Source: a virus
IMG/VR virus record: IMGVR_UViG_3300017788_000170
Location: 1 to 23,923 of that record
Reading direction: 5' to 3' (one strand)
Length of the DNA stretch: 23,923 bases
Part shown: positions 1-23,605 of the stretch, piece by piece
Numbering within the stretch: position 1 is the first letter of the stretch
Layout of the letters: the number at the start of each line of letters is the position of its first letter
Translations under genes and position numbers: made by a program
Notes under the pieces: model-generated
What the model was told of the DNA's origin: nothing
The model's database searches: none
The model's input: the letters and a program-made list of their open reading frames with translations, nothing else

Positions 1-2810
1 CCATCAATGTTGAACAGCCAAGATTTCGTGCTGCCTTCCGAATCTGTGGACTGCAATGCTATGCCTCGATCATTGGCTCCTTGTAGCGTAAAATATGTGT
101 CTAACTCTGGAGCTGGATTGTAAGTTTGTATTGTGCCGGCACTGTCTACGATTATAGTGGCAAATGTTGGTGAACCTGTGGTCGACAGTTCAGAATCTTG
201 GTCAGTTCCGGGACCTGACTCTCCCTGTGGCCCTGCGGCACCTGCTGGTCCTGTAGCACCAGTGGGTCCTGAGTCTGTAATTGATAAAATGCCCGACATA
301 CTGCCATGAAACTGGCAAATATAGTATAATGTACTGGGCGCATCAAAAGGTACTGTGAAAATTACAGTGCCTGAACCGGTTCCGTTGTTAGTAACACCAC
401 TAGTATACGCACTACCTGTACCAGTAGTTTGGCTAGTTTTAATCCAAAATGGGTGCCCACTAGCAGCAACAGTGAAATAATAAGTAAACCCACGCAGTAA
501 ATTGATAGTGGGATTGGCACTACCGTTGATTAAGTAGCTACTAGCACCGCTGTTAGACACAGCATAATTAGGTCCGCCAGTTAGGCCTGTGGCACCTGCT
601 GGTCCTGGATCTCCCTGTGGACCTGGATCTCCCTGTGGACCTGGATCGCCTTGTGGACCTGGATCTCCCTGTGGACCTGGATCTCCTTGTGGTCCTTGAG
701 CACCGCCACCTCCTAATAATCCTTCAGTGTCAGTTAAGTCTGAAACATCTGCGGGGATAGTGGGTAAATCTTCTAATGTAATATATCCTGCATCGTTTTC
801 TAAATCGCTTAGATTAACTGGTGCTGTAACATCAGTGATAATGGAGGGTCTTTCTTGAATCGTTAAATAACTCCACGTGGATGTCGAACCGTTGTTTGTT
901 CCGTCATTCAGTAATAATCCGCCAGAAAATTCTGCAAATCTTAATTTATTATCTACCACTGTAAATGATATTGCAGGTTGTGACTGTGAGGGAATAGTGA
1001 TTTCAGAAAACTGCGGCCCAGTATAAAGTACTACAGAGGCCGATGGCAAGTCATCACTGAAATAATCTTTGCCAGGATTTATAACCAGACCATACTCATA
1101 TGGTTCGATTGGGTCCGGAACCAACGCATATGAGTTATTGTCGTATCCTGGATCACGAAATCCAATTTCACCGCCTTGCAGGCTTGCCCAAGCCCAATAG
1201 CCTAATCCTTCAGGATTTCCTGGCCAATCTTCGTCATTGATATCTATCACTACGGCAGGATAGGACCATCCGTCTCCCGAAACAGTAGTATAACTTTGTG
1301 ATACGCCTAGTGTTATTAGGTCACCGTTAATAGGTCTCCACGACACTACCAGCCCCACCGGCATATTGATACCATTTACGATGCCGTCAAAAGGAATAGT
1401 GTTAGTTGTTGATACACTGGCATCGGGCGGAGTATTTGGTACCACTCCCTCTACCGCTGTGAAGGAAGATTGGAATCCGCTATATTCTATAACTCCGTCT
1501 AACAGATGATCTTGTCCTACAATGCCAGTCCTAGTAGCAGTAAGAATTTTTTGGAACCTAACGGCCTGTCCTTCAGATAAAGTAACAGGTTCAGATAGTG
1601 TAATTTGATTGCCATTGACTGCTTGAACTGTTATATCGTTTTGACTGGTAAGAAAGCTTCTATAATAGGAAGTTTTAGAATAATAGCCTATATCTAACAA
1701 TACCATTTTCATTCCCGCTTCGATTCCTGTACCTCCTAACTGATATTCCGGATGCCACCAAGGAAAGTCGTCATTGTGATCCTGCCAAAGAGCCCGCCAA
1801 TTAAACTGATCTGGACTATTGTTGATATAACTGTATACCTCCCAGTCATCACTTTCGCCCCCTGCGATAGTATAAGGTCCAATCTGAGCGGTTGTTAAAG
1901 ACACTGTGTTAGGATTTACATTAAGCACTGTTCTTTTGGCTACGGCATAAAGTCCTACTTGGAAATCTTGCGTAGGGATAGGAAAATTTGTTGCGGAAAA
2001 AGTAACCACTTGACCTCTTTGATAGGTCACAGAACTCGACCAAACGCTTTTAAACCAAGTAAACCATTCTGATTTTAAAGGAGGAGTTGCTAATGAAGAT
2101 CCTTGATCTAATGTTATAGTTGCTGAATTTTCAACTGCTGTTGTTGTTACTCTTTGAAGAGTTCTCGCTACAAAACTAACTGGATCAGGACCACTTACAA
2201 AGTTTCTTTTTGAGAGTTCTGATGATTGTTGTGGAACAGCACCGTTCCAATCTGACTTTTTATTAAAAGTCACGGCTCTTGCCCCCGTGCCTTTTGATAG
2301 AGTGATATTTTGTATACCAGAAGTAGAAACTATCGGGGAACTAGTGATCAAAGAACCGCCAATATTACTAATTTCAATCCCGCCTAAATCAATAGTGTTA
2401 CCACTAAGATATAAATCACGGAATCTATTTGTAGGACTGCCCAAATCATACGCAACATCTGTGTCAGGAATAATGCTTTGATCTATAGCTGACAGATCTA
2501 CATGTTCTAATAAATTTTGTGTGTCAGTTAGGTCTGAAACATCTGTGGGGATAGCGGAAATGTCATTTGCTAGTGATAAATTTAATCGGTTGTTTATGTC
2601 GTCATAGTCAACGTTTATGCCAGAGTGTACGCCCGACACGATCATCTGAGCTGCATAATCTTGAGCTAATTCTGTTATCCCTTCTACGGTACCGCTGGTT
2701 ATCGCATATAGCTCATTAAAATTTTGATTTACTTTGTTAAATGCATCTCTTATAGCGTCGCCGTCTTTGGAATTAGGTCTCGTTCCGATGTTTATCGTTT
2801 GTCTAGCCAT
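1..2810 (-). CDS. Collagen-like tail fibre/virion protein with cupredoxin domain (3' end outside window)
   Basis: An open frame runs from ATG at 2810 leftwards off the window edge, giving at least 936 residues without a stop. The N-terminus ([20 protein letters not shown]..., then [13 protein letters not shown]) is the type that opens many structural proteins of marine T4-like phages. Visible modules in order: [11 protein letters not shown] near residue 87; a long beta-rich, Trp-rich region; a second [11 protein letters not shown] near residue 685; a collagen-like Gly-X-Y stretch at about 705-745, mostly GPQGDP repeats; a cupredoxin-like domain at about 748-843 with His786, Cys832, His835 and Met838 as likely copper ligands; a second Gly-X-Y stretch at about 848-868; then the start of a module with [10 protein letters not shown]. 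It is probably a trimeric fibre or head/tail decoration. The late-promoter-like box GGTAAATA lies 20 bases upstream, and GGGG lies 7-8 bases before the ATG as a weak ribosome site. The fibre role is inferred; the receptor is unknown. Confidence 0.9.
282..572 (-). other. Cupredoxin-like (type 1 copper) domain inside the fibre gene
   Basis: The segment encodes a beta-rich domain ending in [12 protein letters not shown]. This has the spacing Cys-x2-His-x2-Met, the short ligand loop of amicyanin-type cupredoxins (plastocyanin has Cys-x2-His-x4-Met). About 46 residues earlier is SGHPFWI, which supplies the first histidine (His786). All four classical ligands are therefore present in the right order. 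Collagen-like Gly-X-Y repeats flank the domain on both sides. Copper binding is inferred from motif and spacing only. Confidence 0.75.
601..690. repeat. Five tandem 18-bp units encoding collagen-like GPQGDP
   Basis: Five consecutive copies of an 18-bp unit (consensus ggacctggatctccctgt) lie at 601-618, 619-636, 637-654, 655-672 and 673-690. They differ only at a few single positions. On the minus strand they encode the hexapeptide Gly-Pro-Gln-Gly-Asp-Pro, a collagen-type Gly-X-Y repeat. Such near-identical units can change copy number by slippage, which would lengthen or shorten the fibre shaft without a frameshift. Confidence 0.95.
727..758. repeat. 32-bp direct repeat, copy 1 (DVSDLTDT module)
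   Basis: This 32-bp stretch matches 2521-2552 at 30 of 32 positions. The copies are 1794 bp (598 codons) apart in the same reading frame. On the minus strand they encode [11 protein letters not shown] and [11 protein letters not shown] respectively. The nucleotide conservation suggests recombinational shuffling of fibre modules. Confidence 0.9.
2521..2552. repeat. 32-bp direct repeat, copy 2 (DVSDLTDT module)
   Basis: Partner of the repeat at 727-758, with two mismatches in 32 bases and in the same frame of the same gene. It encodes [11 protein letters not shown] near residue 87 of the fibre protein. Confidence 0.9.
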
Positions 2811-5776: not shown

Positions 5777-6211
5777 ATGTCTGAACAAATCATTTGCTCT
5801 GGAGCCCTGGTATATTCTCGATCAACTAAACGATTTTTATTTTTACAAAAAGCAGCGGGAAAAAATAAAGGAACTTGGGGGTTAGTCGGCGGATCTATGC
5901 TAGAAGGAGAAAATCCCTGGCAGGCATTGCAGAGAGAAATTTTTGAAGAAATCGGAACGCCGCCAGAAATAATAAAAACTATTCCATTAGAAACGTTTGT
6001 TTCTAATGACAAGATTTTTAATTTTCATACTTATCTCTGTGTGATTGATGCTGAATTCGTTCCTAACCTTAGTAAAGAACACTGCGGATGGTCGTGGTGT
6101 GTAATCGAAACTGCTCCCAGACCCCTACATCAGGGACTTAAAAGCAGTTTTTCTAACAAATCGTTGATGCGCAAACTCGAAACAGTTTTCAAAATCGTCG
6201 ATCTTCTTTAA
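5777..6211 (+). CDS. Nudix hydrolase
   Basis: 144 residues with a perfect Nudix box at 39-61 (Gly39, Glu45, Arg53-Glu54, Glu57-Glu58, Gly60), matching G-x5-E-x7-REUxEExGU. Such enzymes hydrolyse nucleoside diphosphates linked to another group X, with a divalent metal held by the box glutamates. The substrate cannot be read from sequence; nucleotide sanitation, ADP-ribose-type substrates or NAD(P)/RNA-cap hydrolysis are all possible. It is the last gene of a plus-strand operon, 13 bases after the gp15-like gene, with no Shine-Dalgarno sequence visible. It is the only clear enzyme of nucleotide metabolism among virion genes. Its stop codon overlaps the opposing stop of the 2017-residue gene. 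Confidence 0.92.
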   Translation: MSEQIICSGALVYSRSTKRFLFLQKAAGKNKGTWGLVGGSMLEGENPWQALQREIFEEIGTPPEIIKTIPLETFVSNDKIFNFHTYLCVIDAEFVPNLSKEHCGWSWCVIETAPRPLHQGLKSSFSNKSLMRKLETVFKIVDLL

Positions 6212-14615: not shown

Positions 14616-15785
14616 TTAACTGAACTTAACGTTGCTGCTAGTAACATCAACCTTAGCCAGATAGTCAGCAGCATTACCAAGAGACGATGCTGTGTTGGTT
14701 AGTTCAACATAGCCATACCTTGTCATGAAGCTTACGACTGGTTCAAATGTTGCTGGATCTAGAACAACACCACTGCTCATCAATGGAATGTATGGGCAGT
14801 AGAATGCTGCTGCATCAGATTCAGAAGAACCTTTGTATCCGATCAATACTGCAGTACTGTCTGGAGCATAGGTATCGACGTAGACTTTCATCGCAGAGTT
14901 TAGAGTTCCAACGAACTTAGTGTTTGTTGGAGCTTCGAAGGTACCTTCTGTGGTTCTTGCGAATGCAGAAGTTGTCGCGCTCTGAAGGATGGTCAATGCT
15001 AGTGGGCTAACCACAGCAAAGTTACCAGCACCACGACGTGTACGCTGAGCGATGATGTTAGAAGCACGATTGATCTGGACAGCCAGAGCAGCATGCTCGT
15101 CACCGACGAACGTAGCTGTACCACTAACTGCACTCTGATCATAGGTTTGAACCGCAGTTCCTGCTAGTGTACGAAGGCTAGCGAGGATTTCTTGATCGAT
15201 TTCAGCTGTGATTTCTTGTGCAAGCGCAGCCATGATTTCTGCTTCAACGTCAATACCTTGTTGGGCTTGTGCGTCTTGTGCAGCTTCGAACGTCCAGCGA
15301 GCAGACAATTTACGTGTCTTAGCTTCAACCGTCTGTTTCAAAATCTGGATGCTCATGCGCTTTCCGGCAACACCTTCTAGAGCGGCCGTAGAAGCAGCTT
15401 TAGGAGCACTATCGCTGTCGTTACCAGAATAGGCACGAGCGATATTGAATGGGCTTAGAGCCTCATCACCTGCAGTTACACCATCAGCTTGATCGGCATA
15501 TCTAACACGTAGAGTATGGATCTGTCCGACTGGCCCAGTCATAGGCTGGACACCGACCAACTCGTTAGCAATAACTGTTGGCATGACCCGTCTAATCACG
15601 GGTAGGATAACACGGTTAAGTGTTGCGACGTTACCGGCAGAAGTGGCACCAGTAGTAGCAGATTCTGACAGATACTTGCGAGTATTCTCTAAAGTAACTG
15701 CCATAACTGACTTCTTAGTACCTTGAAGGCCTTCTAATAGTGCCTCTTTAGTTTCTTGCCAGCGGCTTTCTAGTAGTTCTGACAT
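14616..15785 (-). CDS. 23: Major capsid protein (T4 gp23-like)
   Basis: 389 residues. It shows gp23 landmarks: the segment ending NELVGVQPMTGPVGQIHTLR then VRYAD near 75-100, and the C-terminal block VLIGYKGSSESDAAAFYCPY followed by IPLMSSGV, FEPVVSFMTRYGYVEL. It forms the hexamers of the icosahedral head with the HK97 fold. T4 gp23 is 521 residues, so this is a compact version, probably without the large insertion domain. The N-terminal stretch KYLSE41|S42 matches the (I/L)-x-E cleavage rule of T4 prohead protease; cutting there leaves 348 residues. AAGGAGA precedes the ATG. It follows protease and scaffold in the T4 order and is closed by a strong terminator. No separate vertex-protein paralogue (gp24) is seen here. 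Confidence 0.95.
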   Translation of the reverse strand: MSELLESRWQETKEALLEGLQGTKKSVMAVTLENTRKYLSESATTGATSAGNVATLNRVILPVIRRVMPTVIANELVGVQPMTGPVGQIHTLRVRYADQADGVTAGDEALSPFNIARAYSGNDSDSAPKAASTAALEGVAGKRMSIQILKQTVEAKTRKLSARWTFEAAQDAQAQQGIDVEAEIMAALAQEITAEIDQEILASLRTLAGTAVQTYDQSAVSGTATFVGDEHAALAVQINRASNIIAQRTRRGAGNFAVVSPLALTILQSATTSAFARTTEGTFEAPTNTKFVGTLNSAMKVYVDTYAPDSTAVLIGYKGSSESDAAAFYCPYIPLMSSGVVLDPATFEPVVSFMTRYGYVELTNTASSLGNAADYLAKVDVTSSNVKFS

Positions 15786-21067: not shown

Positions 21068-23605
21068 TTAAGCCAATGAAGATGAGCCTATCAAAGTTCC
21101 TGTTCTCATCGAAACAAGCATGCCTTTTCTAGCTCGAGCTAATTCATCATTGTTTACACTCTGTAAGTTAACTAGATCAGCTACTAGAGTATTTAACTGA
21201 TTTATTTTTTCATTCATTGAAACTAGAGAATCGTTCTGAGATCTCATCAGCGATATATTCGTATCCGACGAAGCATTATTTTTCATAATTTGCTCATTGT
21301 TAGATTTAGAGTTTTCTTTGGTTTTATCCAACTCTTCTTGGATCCTTTTCACTTCTTCTCTGTATTTTTTTTCTATTTCACTGGCTTGATCAAAAACATT
21401 TTTTGGACTAGGGGGGCTTGCCGAAGTATTCGACCCGGCACCAGTTAGTCCAGCGAAAAATTTAGCAGCCTTTTCTGGGCTAATAATTCCTAATGTCGCA
21501 GCACTGACCAATCCTCCAGCACCGGCTGCTGCAGTTTCTCCGGCAGTTGCCGATCTAGGTTTACCGGTTTTTGGATCTATTGGTAGTCCTAAAGTCTCGC
21601 TGGCGTTATATGCTGCATGTATAGTTTCTCCGGCACCTACTAACAATCCCACCCCGGGTATGAATTTCGCCGCACCTAGACCTAATCTTTTTAGCAAAGC
21701 GCCCGCACCTGCAGCAGTCCCTTGTTTTAAAGAGTCCCCAGGCAAAGTTGGACCTTTATTTCTGCTGGCGCTAACAGCGTCTTTAGTAGCCTTGATCGCA
21801 TCTCCAGGTGCTCGTAACACATCTCTCGCACCTCTAATTATAGCTGATTTAGCAAATAATAAACTAATAGCACCGGCTAATGCTGCTGCAGCAACTGGAC
21901 TGGTAAACAATGATAATAACCCTTCTCCAACCATAGGAATCACTGCAGTGAATAAAGTGTTTATTCCAGCCTGGGCATAGGGCTTTAGGTCTTCGAACAT
22001 TTTTTGTAGATAAGGGCCGCCATAATTTTTAAGATCTTCCCAGAGTTGCCTAAATGCTTCGTTAGCTCCTTGTGTTCCCAGCGTATCTATAAACTCTTTC
22101 ATCCGTTGTGCTGTCATCTGAGCAAACTGTTCTATAGATTTTATTAGTTCACCGCCTGGACCTAGTTTTATAACTAGATTAGCTCCAGCTAATTCTAAAG
22201 CTTTTAATGCAGGTATCATTGCGATCGTTACAGCATTCCGTATGTCTAGCAGCACACCATCTAGATTAGCCAGAGATTTTTCGGTAGTTGATAACGCTGT
22301 TTTTTGACTATTAGCAGCATCTTCGTGCCCAAGACCAAATTTCTGTAATCCCTGTAAATACGCTGCGGTGGCAGGTGGCAGTTCTTTGCCCATGGTCATT
22401 GTTTGGGTGATGAATCGCCGAGTCGGCTCATCTAGGTCGTTCATCCTTTCGGCAGCGGTGCGAATCTGTTCTTCAAATCTTGCCACAGATCCTGGTACTC
22501 CCCGAAACATGTCTTGGATAGTCGGTGCTAGATCTATACCTATCGCTTTCAATCCTACTGCAAAACTTTTTGCTGAATCCGTCAACGGCACACCAACACC
22601 GCCGATCATATCTCTTAAAATGGTTACGAGTTGACCTCGACCTTCTTCTTCTAATTGCCTAAGGCCTGCATTTAATCTATTCCGCTCTGAAGTTTCTAAC
22701 TTTGATAGAGCATTACGCATCCTAGTATCAGCAGCTACCTGTTTATTAGCATCGTCGATCGACCTTCGTTGTAGGCCAGTGGCTCTTGCCAATCGATCTA
22801 ACTCGAAATTATAATTTTGTGCACCTTTGGCTAGTTGATCGGTGCTCATCGATTCTATCCTGCCCAACCTTCGTTGTTGATCTAGATAGCTAGCAGTAAA
22901 CTCCGCAGTTTCCTCCATAGAAAATCCTAGCCTAGCAAACTGAGGTCTAAGTTTCTGCACTTCTCCGCTGATCTGCGTAAATCTTCTGGCACCTTGGTTC
23001 ACAGAACCGCCTAAGGCACTAAGGTCTCTGGCATTCTCTGTTATAACTTTTTTATAGACTTCTAACGGCAGATTGGCTTCTACCGCACGGAGCTTTATAT
23101 CGGTGAGACCGGTTCCGAGATCCGCACCTACCTGACTTAAATCTCGAAAATCTGTGATCATACCTTCGAGGACATGTCCAAATGTTCCTAGAGTGTTTAT
23201 AGGTATGATGCTGGTCAAAGCATCAGTCATTTGGGTTAGCTTAGGAGTATTCGTCGCGAAAGCGATATTAAATGCTGATGAAACGGTGCTATCTATGAGT
23301 TTGGCTAATCCTGTGATTAGCCCGAGAGTACCTTTAGCTAGAGAGGAAATGCTGGTGGCTGCAGTTTTAGCCGATTCGCCTAGTTTTTCAACGCCAACAT
23401 TTGACTGTCTCAGCGAACGATTATAGAGATCTTGTAATCTAGCTCGCTCTCTATCTGAAGCGATATTATTACCGCCGGATCCTGATCTCCTAGAGCTAGA
23501 ACTTTCGACCAGTTCTACTAGTCGTAAGAGAGTAGCTTCGGACGCAGCGTTTTCTAATATACTACCATCGAGGTCACCACCTCGAACTTCGACTCGTTCA
23601 GCCAT
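21068..23605 (-). CDS. Probable tail tape-measure protein
   Basis: 845 residues, helical and repeat-poor, with hydrophobic Gly/Ala-rich segments at about 84-104, 545-590 and 640-665 and a coiled coil at about 740-815. This layout is typical of tape-measure proteins, which fill the tail tube, set its length and enter the host envelope during infection. T4 gp29 is about 590 residues; using the same residue-to-length ratio the tail would be roughly 1.4 times the T4 length. The plus-strand gene to its right looks like a baseplate hub protein, as in the T4 hub cluster that holds gene 29. No lysozyme or peptidase motif was seen. There is no clear Shine-Dalgarno sequence. A candidate promoter box lies 55 bases upstream. 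Identification is by size, composition and context. Confidence 0.75.
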   Translation of the reverse strand: MAERVEVRGGDLDGSILENAASEATLLRLVELVESSSSRRSGSGGNNIASDRERARLQDLYNRSLRQSNVGVEKLGESAKTAATSISSLAKGTLGLITGLAKLIDSTVSSAFNIAFATNTPKLTQMTDALTSIIPINTLGTFGHVLEGMITDFRDLSQVGADLGTGLTDIKLRAVEANLPLEVYKKVITENARDLSALGGSVNQGARRFTQISGEVQKLRPQFARLGFSMEETAEFTASYLDQQRRLGRIESMSTDQLAKGAQNYNFELDRLARATGLQRRSIDDANKQVAADTRMRNALSKLETSERNRLNAGLRQLEEEGRGQLVTILRDMIGGVGVPLTDSAKSFAVGLKAIGIDLAPTIQDMFRGVPGSVARFEEQIRTAAERMNDLDEPTRRFITQTMTMGKELPPATAAYLQGLQKFGLGHEDAANSQKTALSTTEKSLANLDGVLLDIRNAVTIAMIPALKALELAGANLVIKLGPGGELIKSIEQFAQMTAQRMKEFIDTLGTQGANEAFRQLWEDLKNYGGPYLQKMFEDLKPYAQAGINTLFTAVIPMVGEGLLSLFTSPVAAAALAGAISLLFAKSAIIRGARDVLRAPGDAIKATKDAVSASRNKGPTLPGDSLKQGTAAGAGALLKRLGLGAAKFIPGVGLLVGAGETIHAAYNASETLGLPIDPKTGKPRSATAGETAAAGAGGLVSAATLGIISPEKAAKFFAGLTGAGSNTSASPPSPKNVFDQASEIEKKYREEVKRIQEELDKTKENSKSNNEQIMKNNASSDTNISLMRSQNDSLVSMNEKINQLNTLVADLVNLQSVNNDELARARKGMLVSMRTGTLIGSSSLA

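Follow-up and report, generated by a model that had tools for sequence, protein, structure and literature searches.

The fiber protein encoded at one end of a T4-like virus record of 23.9 kb (hereafter the window, that is, the whole 23,923-nucleotide stretch of DNA that was analyzed) carries, between two collagen-like runs, a domain that on the evidence of sequence comparison and structure modeling is a member of a so-far unnamed family of the cupredoxin superfamily, distinct from the amicyanins, and that very probably contains an intact cupredoxin metal site kept by selection. Computation establishes that the full type-1 ligand set is present, that the fold is that of a cupredoxin, that the set is under selection, and that the domain behaves as a module. 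The metal in the site would be copper, and the architecture of the protein suggests that the domain is located on the virion surface. While the cupredoxin fold itself is already known, the family and its setting are new.

The fiber protein and the virus that encodes it

The fiber gene and the features discussed below lie at the following positions of the window.

3..2810, minus strand: fiber protein gene; 936 residues read, with an open 3′ end and the C terminus beyond the window edge
2691..2810, minus strand: N-terminal anchor (residues 1–40), T4 gp9/gp10-like and common to cyanophage “gp9” proteins; PF07880 match below cut-off
570..722, minus strand: collagen-like Gly-X-Y run (residues 697–747; Pfam Collagen), upstream of the cupredoxin-like domain
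273..569, minus strand: cupredoxin-like domain (residues 748–846; ∼99 residues)
453..455, minus strand: His786, putative Cu ligand 1, in the loop that follows model strand 32–38
315..317, minus strand: Cys832, putative Cu ligand 2
306..308, minus strand: His835, putative Cu ligand 3
297..299, minus strand: Met838, putative axial ligand (Gln in the relative L282)
207..269, minus strand: Gly-X-Y run (residues 848–868), downstream of the cupredoxin-like domain

The protein matches the Pfam Collagen model (E = 6.9e-8) and PHROG tail families. Its N-terminal anchor is ∼27%–55% identical to gp9-type relatives over 35–81 residues, and the match of the protein to PF07880 (T4_gp9_10_N; E = 1.2e-4) scores 22.7 bits, below the cut-off of 25. 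The part of the fiber that falls within the window shows no enzyme domain. The residue numbers that an earlier sequence-only reading of this DNA had assigned to the four ligands are exact and map onto codons in the window, and the Gly-X-Y repeats that it had described on both flanks of the domain correspond to the two runs listed above. Cys832 is the sole Cys among the 936 residues read, and a second Cys-x2-His-x2-Met in any of the six frames of the window is found only once, in a frame that is interrupted by stops.

As to the virus, the Gp23 capsid, Gp20 portal, and gp15 sheath-stabilizer proteins reach Pfam cut-offs. The Gp23 major capsid protein (14616–15785) is 70%–73% identical to its closest homologs, which are found in very large phages such as Vibrio phage 2.275.O, Erwinia (SNUABM) and Serratia phages of ∼350 kb, and the 469-kb Sinorhizobium phage Phosso; by this capsid marker, the virus is therefore not a cyanophage. 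Judging from these sequences, the window is probably one piece of the larger genome of a jumbo phage of the T4-like type. A NUDIX hydrolase gene (5777–6211, plus strand) lies between the gp15-like sheath-stabilizer gene and a gene for a 2017-residue fiber, and an 845-residue protein encoded beside the portal gene (21068–23605, minus strand) has no match in Pfam or PHROG.

Predicted fold and kinship to cupredoxins

An AlphaFold2 model of the domain, built from an alignment of 52 diverse relatives, has a mean pLDDT of 97.1 and a pTM of 0.89, and its strands (residues 4–10, 14–17, 25–28, 32–38, 44–47, 69–75, 83–88, and 95–101) follow the cupredoxin order. The sequence-only reading had looked to structure prediction for a verdict on whether the four side chains come together; at the level of strands and loops, the model places the ligands where cupredoxins have them. 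H42 (that is, His786) is placed in the loop between strands 32–38 and 44–47, C88 at the end of strand 83–88, and H91 and M94 before strand 95–101. In cupredoxins, the copper ligands occupy these same places, a His first and then Cys-xn-His-xn-Met/Gln before the last strand. The predicted structure combines the features by which the superfamily is recognized, a Greek-key β-sandwich and a type-1 ligand set in the expected loops. When the model was compared with the PDB using Foldseek, all 20 matches at E ≤ 0.001 were copper proteins, the best being rusticyanin (4.2e-5); other matches include AcoP, multicopper oxidases, a CuA protein with an amicyanin loop, and CuNIR. In VIA-align, the top match is the cupredoxin domain of Hyphomicrobium CuNIR (2dv6; Z = 11.1, 1.9 Å over 89 residues), followed by rusticyanin (2cal; Z = 10.9, 2.1 Å over 93 residues).

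The domain thus shares its predicted fold with the single-domain blue copper proteins (rusticyanin, amicyanin, auracyanin, and plastocyanin), including the His before the fourth long strand and the Cys, His, and Met in the last loop, the latter with the Cys-x2-His-x2-Met spacing of amicyanin. It differs from these proteins in being part of a fiber, without the context of a mobile electron carrier, and its identity to solved cupredoxins is ∼20% or less, below every curated cut-off. Three-domain copper nitrite reductases have an extra cupredoxin domain, and this gives the best structural match (2dv6, with 9cck by sequence); in these proteins, the domain is fused to the enzyme and feeds electrons.

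At the sequence level, the window protein reaches no curated cupredoxin model in Pfam or NCBIfam, and no model in either collection covers the domain family; sub-threshold matches are, however, recurrently to cupredoxins (TIGR02657, TIGR03095, TIGR03102, and PF00127). Among 52 relatives, the amicyanin model TIGR02657 gives weak matches in 9 (best E = 0.016) and PF00127 (Copper-bind) in 14 (best E = 0.0047), in both cases short of the cut-off and with no match to the window domain itself, and the halocyanin model matches 4 weakly; the rusticyanin model TIGR03095 gives 15.1 bits against a cut-off of 146.7 (E = 0.02–0.024 for the window domain). The “amicyanin-type” motif of the sequence-only reading accordingly stands as a description of the loop spacing but not as an assignment to the amicyanin family. 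The best PDB profile match of the family alignment is the C-terminal domain of the CuNIR 9cck (E = 0.036), which has the segment Y-I-C-x2-H-x2-M-x-G in common with the fiber domain; auracyanin is also listed. When the family was aligned by hhalign with PF00127 proteins from the same bacterial genomes as the domain relatives, the score was 30.0, above all of 100 shuffled or reversed controls (mean 13.1, s.d. 2.8, maximum 19.3), and in a full-length pairing with one such protein (L337) the Cys residues align with each other, as do the His. The profile comparison with cupredoxin families that the earlier reading had proposed thus points to kinship in hhalign but misses the cut-off of every curated family. 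Among other candidate relatives, NAGLU_N, DUF4352, and At5g54830 (Pfam) were dropped, being sub-threshold where shown singly, and the only phmmer match in the PDB, a glycophorin, was judged meaningless.

PHROG 677 (“baseplate wedge tail fiber protein connector”, cyanophage gp9) and PHROG 9158 match the domain with E = 1.3e-35 and 6e-21, respectively, the rest of the protein being different except for the gp9/10-like N terminus. The same domain makes up the C-terminal ∼100 residues of their members, which lack the collagen flanks and whose annotation is silent on cupredoxins and copper.

Conservation and joint loss of the ligand set

Across 219 distinct site-bearing relatives, the ligands are kept at 99%–100% while most other positions vary, and the four ligand columns rank 2, 3, 4, and 6 of 99 in conservation. 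Both synonymous codons are present at the His, Cys, and His positions among 74 distinct relatives, which argues that the residues are held by selection rather than by recent copying. A point against a blue copper site is that the stretch of loop from Cys to His contains neither Pro nor Gly, one of which is present at this place in many blue copper proteins.

Homologs that routinely lack the Cys or a His had been named in the sequence-only reading as an outcome that would count against it, and this outcome is not what the homologs show. In a census of all fetched loci, 217 of 256 distinct domains are HCHM, one is HCHQ, and one is NCHM; another 30 have Phe, Ala/Ser, Thr/Val/Ile, and Met at the four positions, and the remainder consists of two domains with all ligands altered (both from L382), three truncated ones, and two misregistered or partial rows. 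Two apparent site losses were rejected: “ICHM” (L319) comes from a longer variant whose row is out of register and in which the His can be seen in an NHPL motif, and “VCHM” (L086) is a partial row. In L282, an acidobacterial lipoprotein-like member, Gln replaces the axial Met (CQFHSSQ); Gln is a natural axial ligand in stellacyanin-type copper sites. It should be noted that the first homolog search used patterns that contain ligands. A repeat search with a 49-residue query that stops short of the first His, and so includes no ligand residue, gave 22 distinct domains, 20 of them HCHM and the other two those of L382. A tblastn search of annotated phages, for which no motif is needed, gave 13 distinct domains from 12 records (11 HCHM, one FAVM, and one partial row).

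The site-less domains fall mainly into what we call the S-B05 clade (about 30 domains; the S-B05-type L228–L278, and L090), in which His, Cys, and His are replaced together by Phe, Ala/Ser, and Thr/Val/Ile. Among the 22 best-conserved columns, these three are the only ones that the clade uniformly replaces, the others being nearly unchanged, and an S-B05-type domain is still modeled with a cupredoxin fold (pLDDT 92.3, Z = 10.7; its alignment took in some site-bearing relatives). The joint loss of His, Cys, and His with retention of the fold indicates that the three residues behave as one separable unit, as expected for a metal site, and that they are not needed for folding. The Met838 column is kept in the site-less clade as well (29/29), so that conservation of the Met adds no separate support for its being a copper ligand. 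A second loss, apparently independent of the first, is seen in L382:1-1344, a fiber with two family domains that both lack the ligands (NST- and YSDL). In a tree built without the ligand columns, the S-B05 clade is placed, on supported branches, beside the site-bearing L275 and phage Bellamy (L083), and the YSDL domain of L382 pairs with the site-bearing L351; this tree requires the site status to change three times. The suggestion that the domain in the window might retain only the fold is unlikely to hold, the fold-only state being that of a different, derived clade, and this clade offers a ready natural control without a site.

Distribution and possible roles

A domain with such a putative copper site, which the sequence-only reading had thought would be unusual on a virion surface, turns out to be widespread in phages, with relatives in 338 annotated phage records (E ≤ 1e-3), mostly of Synechococcus and Prochlorococcus phages. 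In many cyanophages (S-ShM2, P-SSM4, S-CAM8), the domain is the C terminus of the gp9 “baseplate wedge tail fiber connector”; in P-SSM2 and Bellamy it lies within fibers, and in the podoviruses P-SCSP2 and P-GSP1 it is close to the N terminus of a protein. Gly-X-Y runs flank it on both sides in 66 of 83 window-like occurrences. A copy that is 96% identical to the domain in the window (L001/L346) belongs to a fiber whose N- and C-terminal parts are different, indicating that the module moves between fibers. One genome scan further gave 54 chromosomal bacterial loci, 44%–66% identical, in Flavobacteriaceae, Rhodobiaceae/OCS116, Acidobacteriota, Myxococcota, Neomarinimicrobiota, and others. These relatives are secreted or lipoprotein-like proteins (export signals judged by eye), some with CHRD or Lipoprotein_15 repeats. 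The tree of phage and bacterial domains, with seven label changes, many open forks, and no inferred root, favors neither transfer from bacteria to phages nor the reverse.

The role that we prefer, tentatively and with a little less than even confidence, is that of a copper-stiffened knob in a trimeric stalk. The fiber trimer would fold in the host cytoplasm with three preformed apo-sites; because free copper is very low in the bacterial cytoplasm, these would be loaded outside the cell, after lysis, apo-cupredoxins being known to take up copper readily, and the bound copper would then tie the end loops together into a rigid, stable knob. We favor this role because the domain is located mid-stalk or at the end of gp9 in unrelated phages, because it is far less variable than the usual receptor-binding tips, and because hydrophobic residues have taken the place of the site in the site-less clade.

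Such a knob and a copper-dependent role in partner docking or redox chemistry agree equally well with the strict conservation and with the kinship to surface proteins. In the docking or redox role, which we regard as possible but on the whole unlikely, the exposed His end would dock onto a surface or periplasmic protein of the host that serves in electron transfer or copper uptake, or would pass electrons, and would thereby aid adsorption; we know of no partner for a fiber cupredoxin domain. In favor of this role, few columns are as conserved as those of the ligands, the bacterial relatives are secreted or lipoprotein-like, and the majority of annotated relatives belong to phages that infect picocyanobacteria, whose photosynthesis relies on copper proteins. 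There is also a precedent for iron, the “Ferrojan” or Trojan Horse proposal for tail fibers (PMC11705849). On the other hand, the domain is not confined to receptor-binding tips, phages from widely separated lineages have kept it, and the S-B05 clade lives without the site.

The site could instead bind another metal (Zn, Ni, or Fe), or provide a reactive Cys for redox sensing or for cross-links between chains. Cys832 has no companion in the residues read, Cys is absent outside the domain in 22 of 59 related fiber reading frames, and apo-cupredoxin sites are able to take Zn; however, the residues at the cupredoxin positions (His, Cys, His, and Met/Gln) are the type-1 copper set, and the two His are conserved to about the same degree as the Cys, although a Cys that reacted on its own would have no need of them, making this reading improbable. 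A stronger objection meets the view that the cupredoxin scaffold serves simply as an Ig-like adhesion or spacer domain with ligands retained by descent. The S-B05 clade and L382 do show that the fold can serve a fiber without the site, and the module is shuffled like the Ig-like and other decoration domains of phage fibers, which are likewise β-sandwiches common to bacterial surface proteins; the fiber domain nevertheless adds a conserved metal-ligand set, and the near-invariance of this set in site-bearing relatives, together with its loss as a unit, leaves the view with very little probability. Finally, a chance motif in an unrelated β-sandwich, in keeping with the failure of the window protein alone to reach a curated cupredoxin model, is effectively refuted by the model fold, the PDB matches, the hhalign score relative to controls, the census, and the conservation of the ligand columns.

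In the literature outside subscription journals and preprints, we found no link of cupredoxins to phage fibers or virions. The nearest published idea is that of iron in tail fibers, bound by HxH motifs in T4 gp37 and in fibers of marine phages (PMC11705849); these are likewise metal sites in the tail fibers of aquatic phages, but they differ in fold, in their paired-His octahedral ligands, and in the metal. If our reading is right, a metalloprotein fold with a selected, intact metal site would sit on the exterior of very abundant aquatic viruses, in the products of genes now labeled “baseplate connector”, “tail fiber”, or “hypothetical”. The function-poor PHROG 677 and 9158 gain a fold and a hypothesis, and phage fibers become linked to secreted proteins of Bacteroidota, Alphaproteobacteria, Acidobacteriota, and others. 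A testable question is raised, namely whether these virions contain copper and whether infection depends on it. The far-reaching proposition that aquatic T4-like phages widely carry copper-loaded type-1 sites on the virion exterior, with copper taken from the water and used in host contact or redox chemistry, is doubtful at present; if true, it would make copper-loaded virions the copper counterpart of the iron Trojan Horse.

Some further cupredoxin-like proteins were noted. A “baseplate wedge subunit” gene (T4-GC 399) beside gp9 in the cyanophage loci L089 and L093 encodes additional, longer cupredoxin-like domains (for example, GHPLRMS...YYHCAYHRYM; domain E = 1.4e-14). L300, L304, L306, and other Rhodobiaceae/OCS116/PS1 loci encode two family domains in tandem, the first being a longer variant, in proteins of open-ocean Alphaproteobacteria that belong to no known family. 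In BFVD, the model of the fiber domain matches A0A481Z6J5, A0A481Z7Q7, and A0A481YVH3, with E values of about 4e-8 to 6e-7; these “Beta-sandwich” proteins come from metagenomic genomes of Pithovirus and Marseillevirus.
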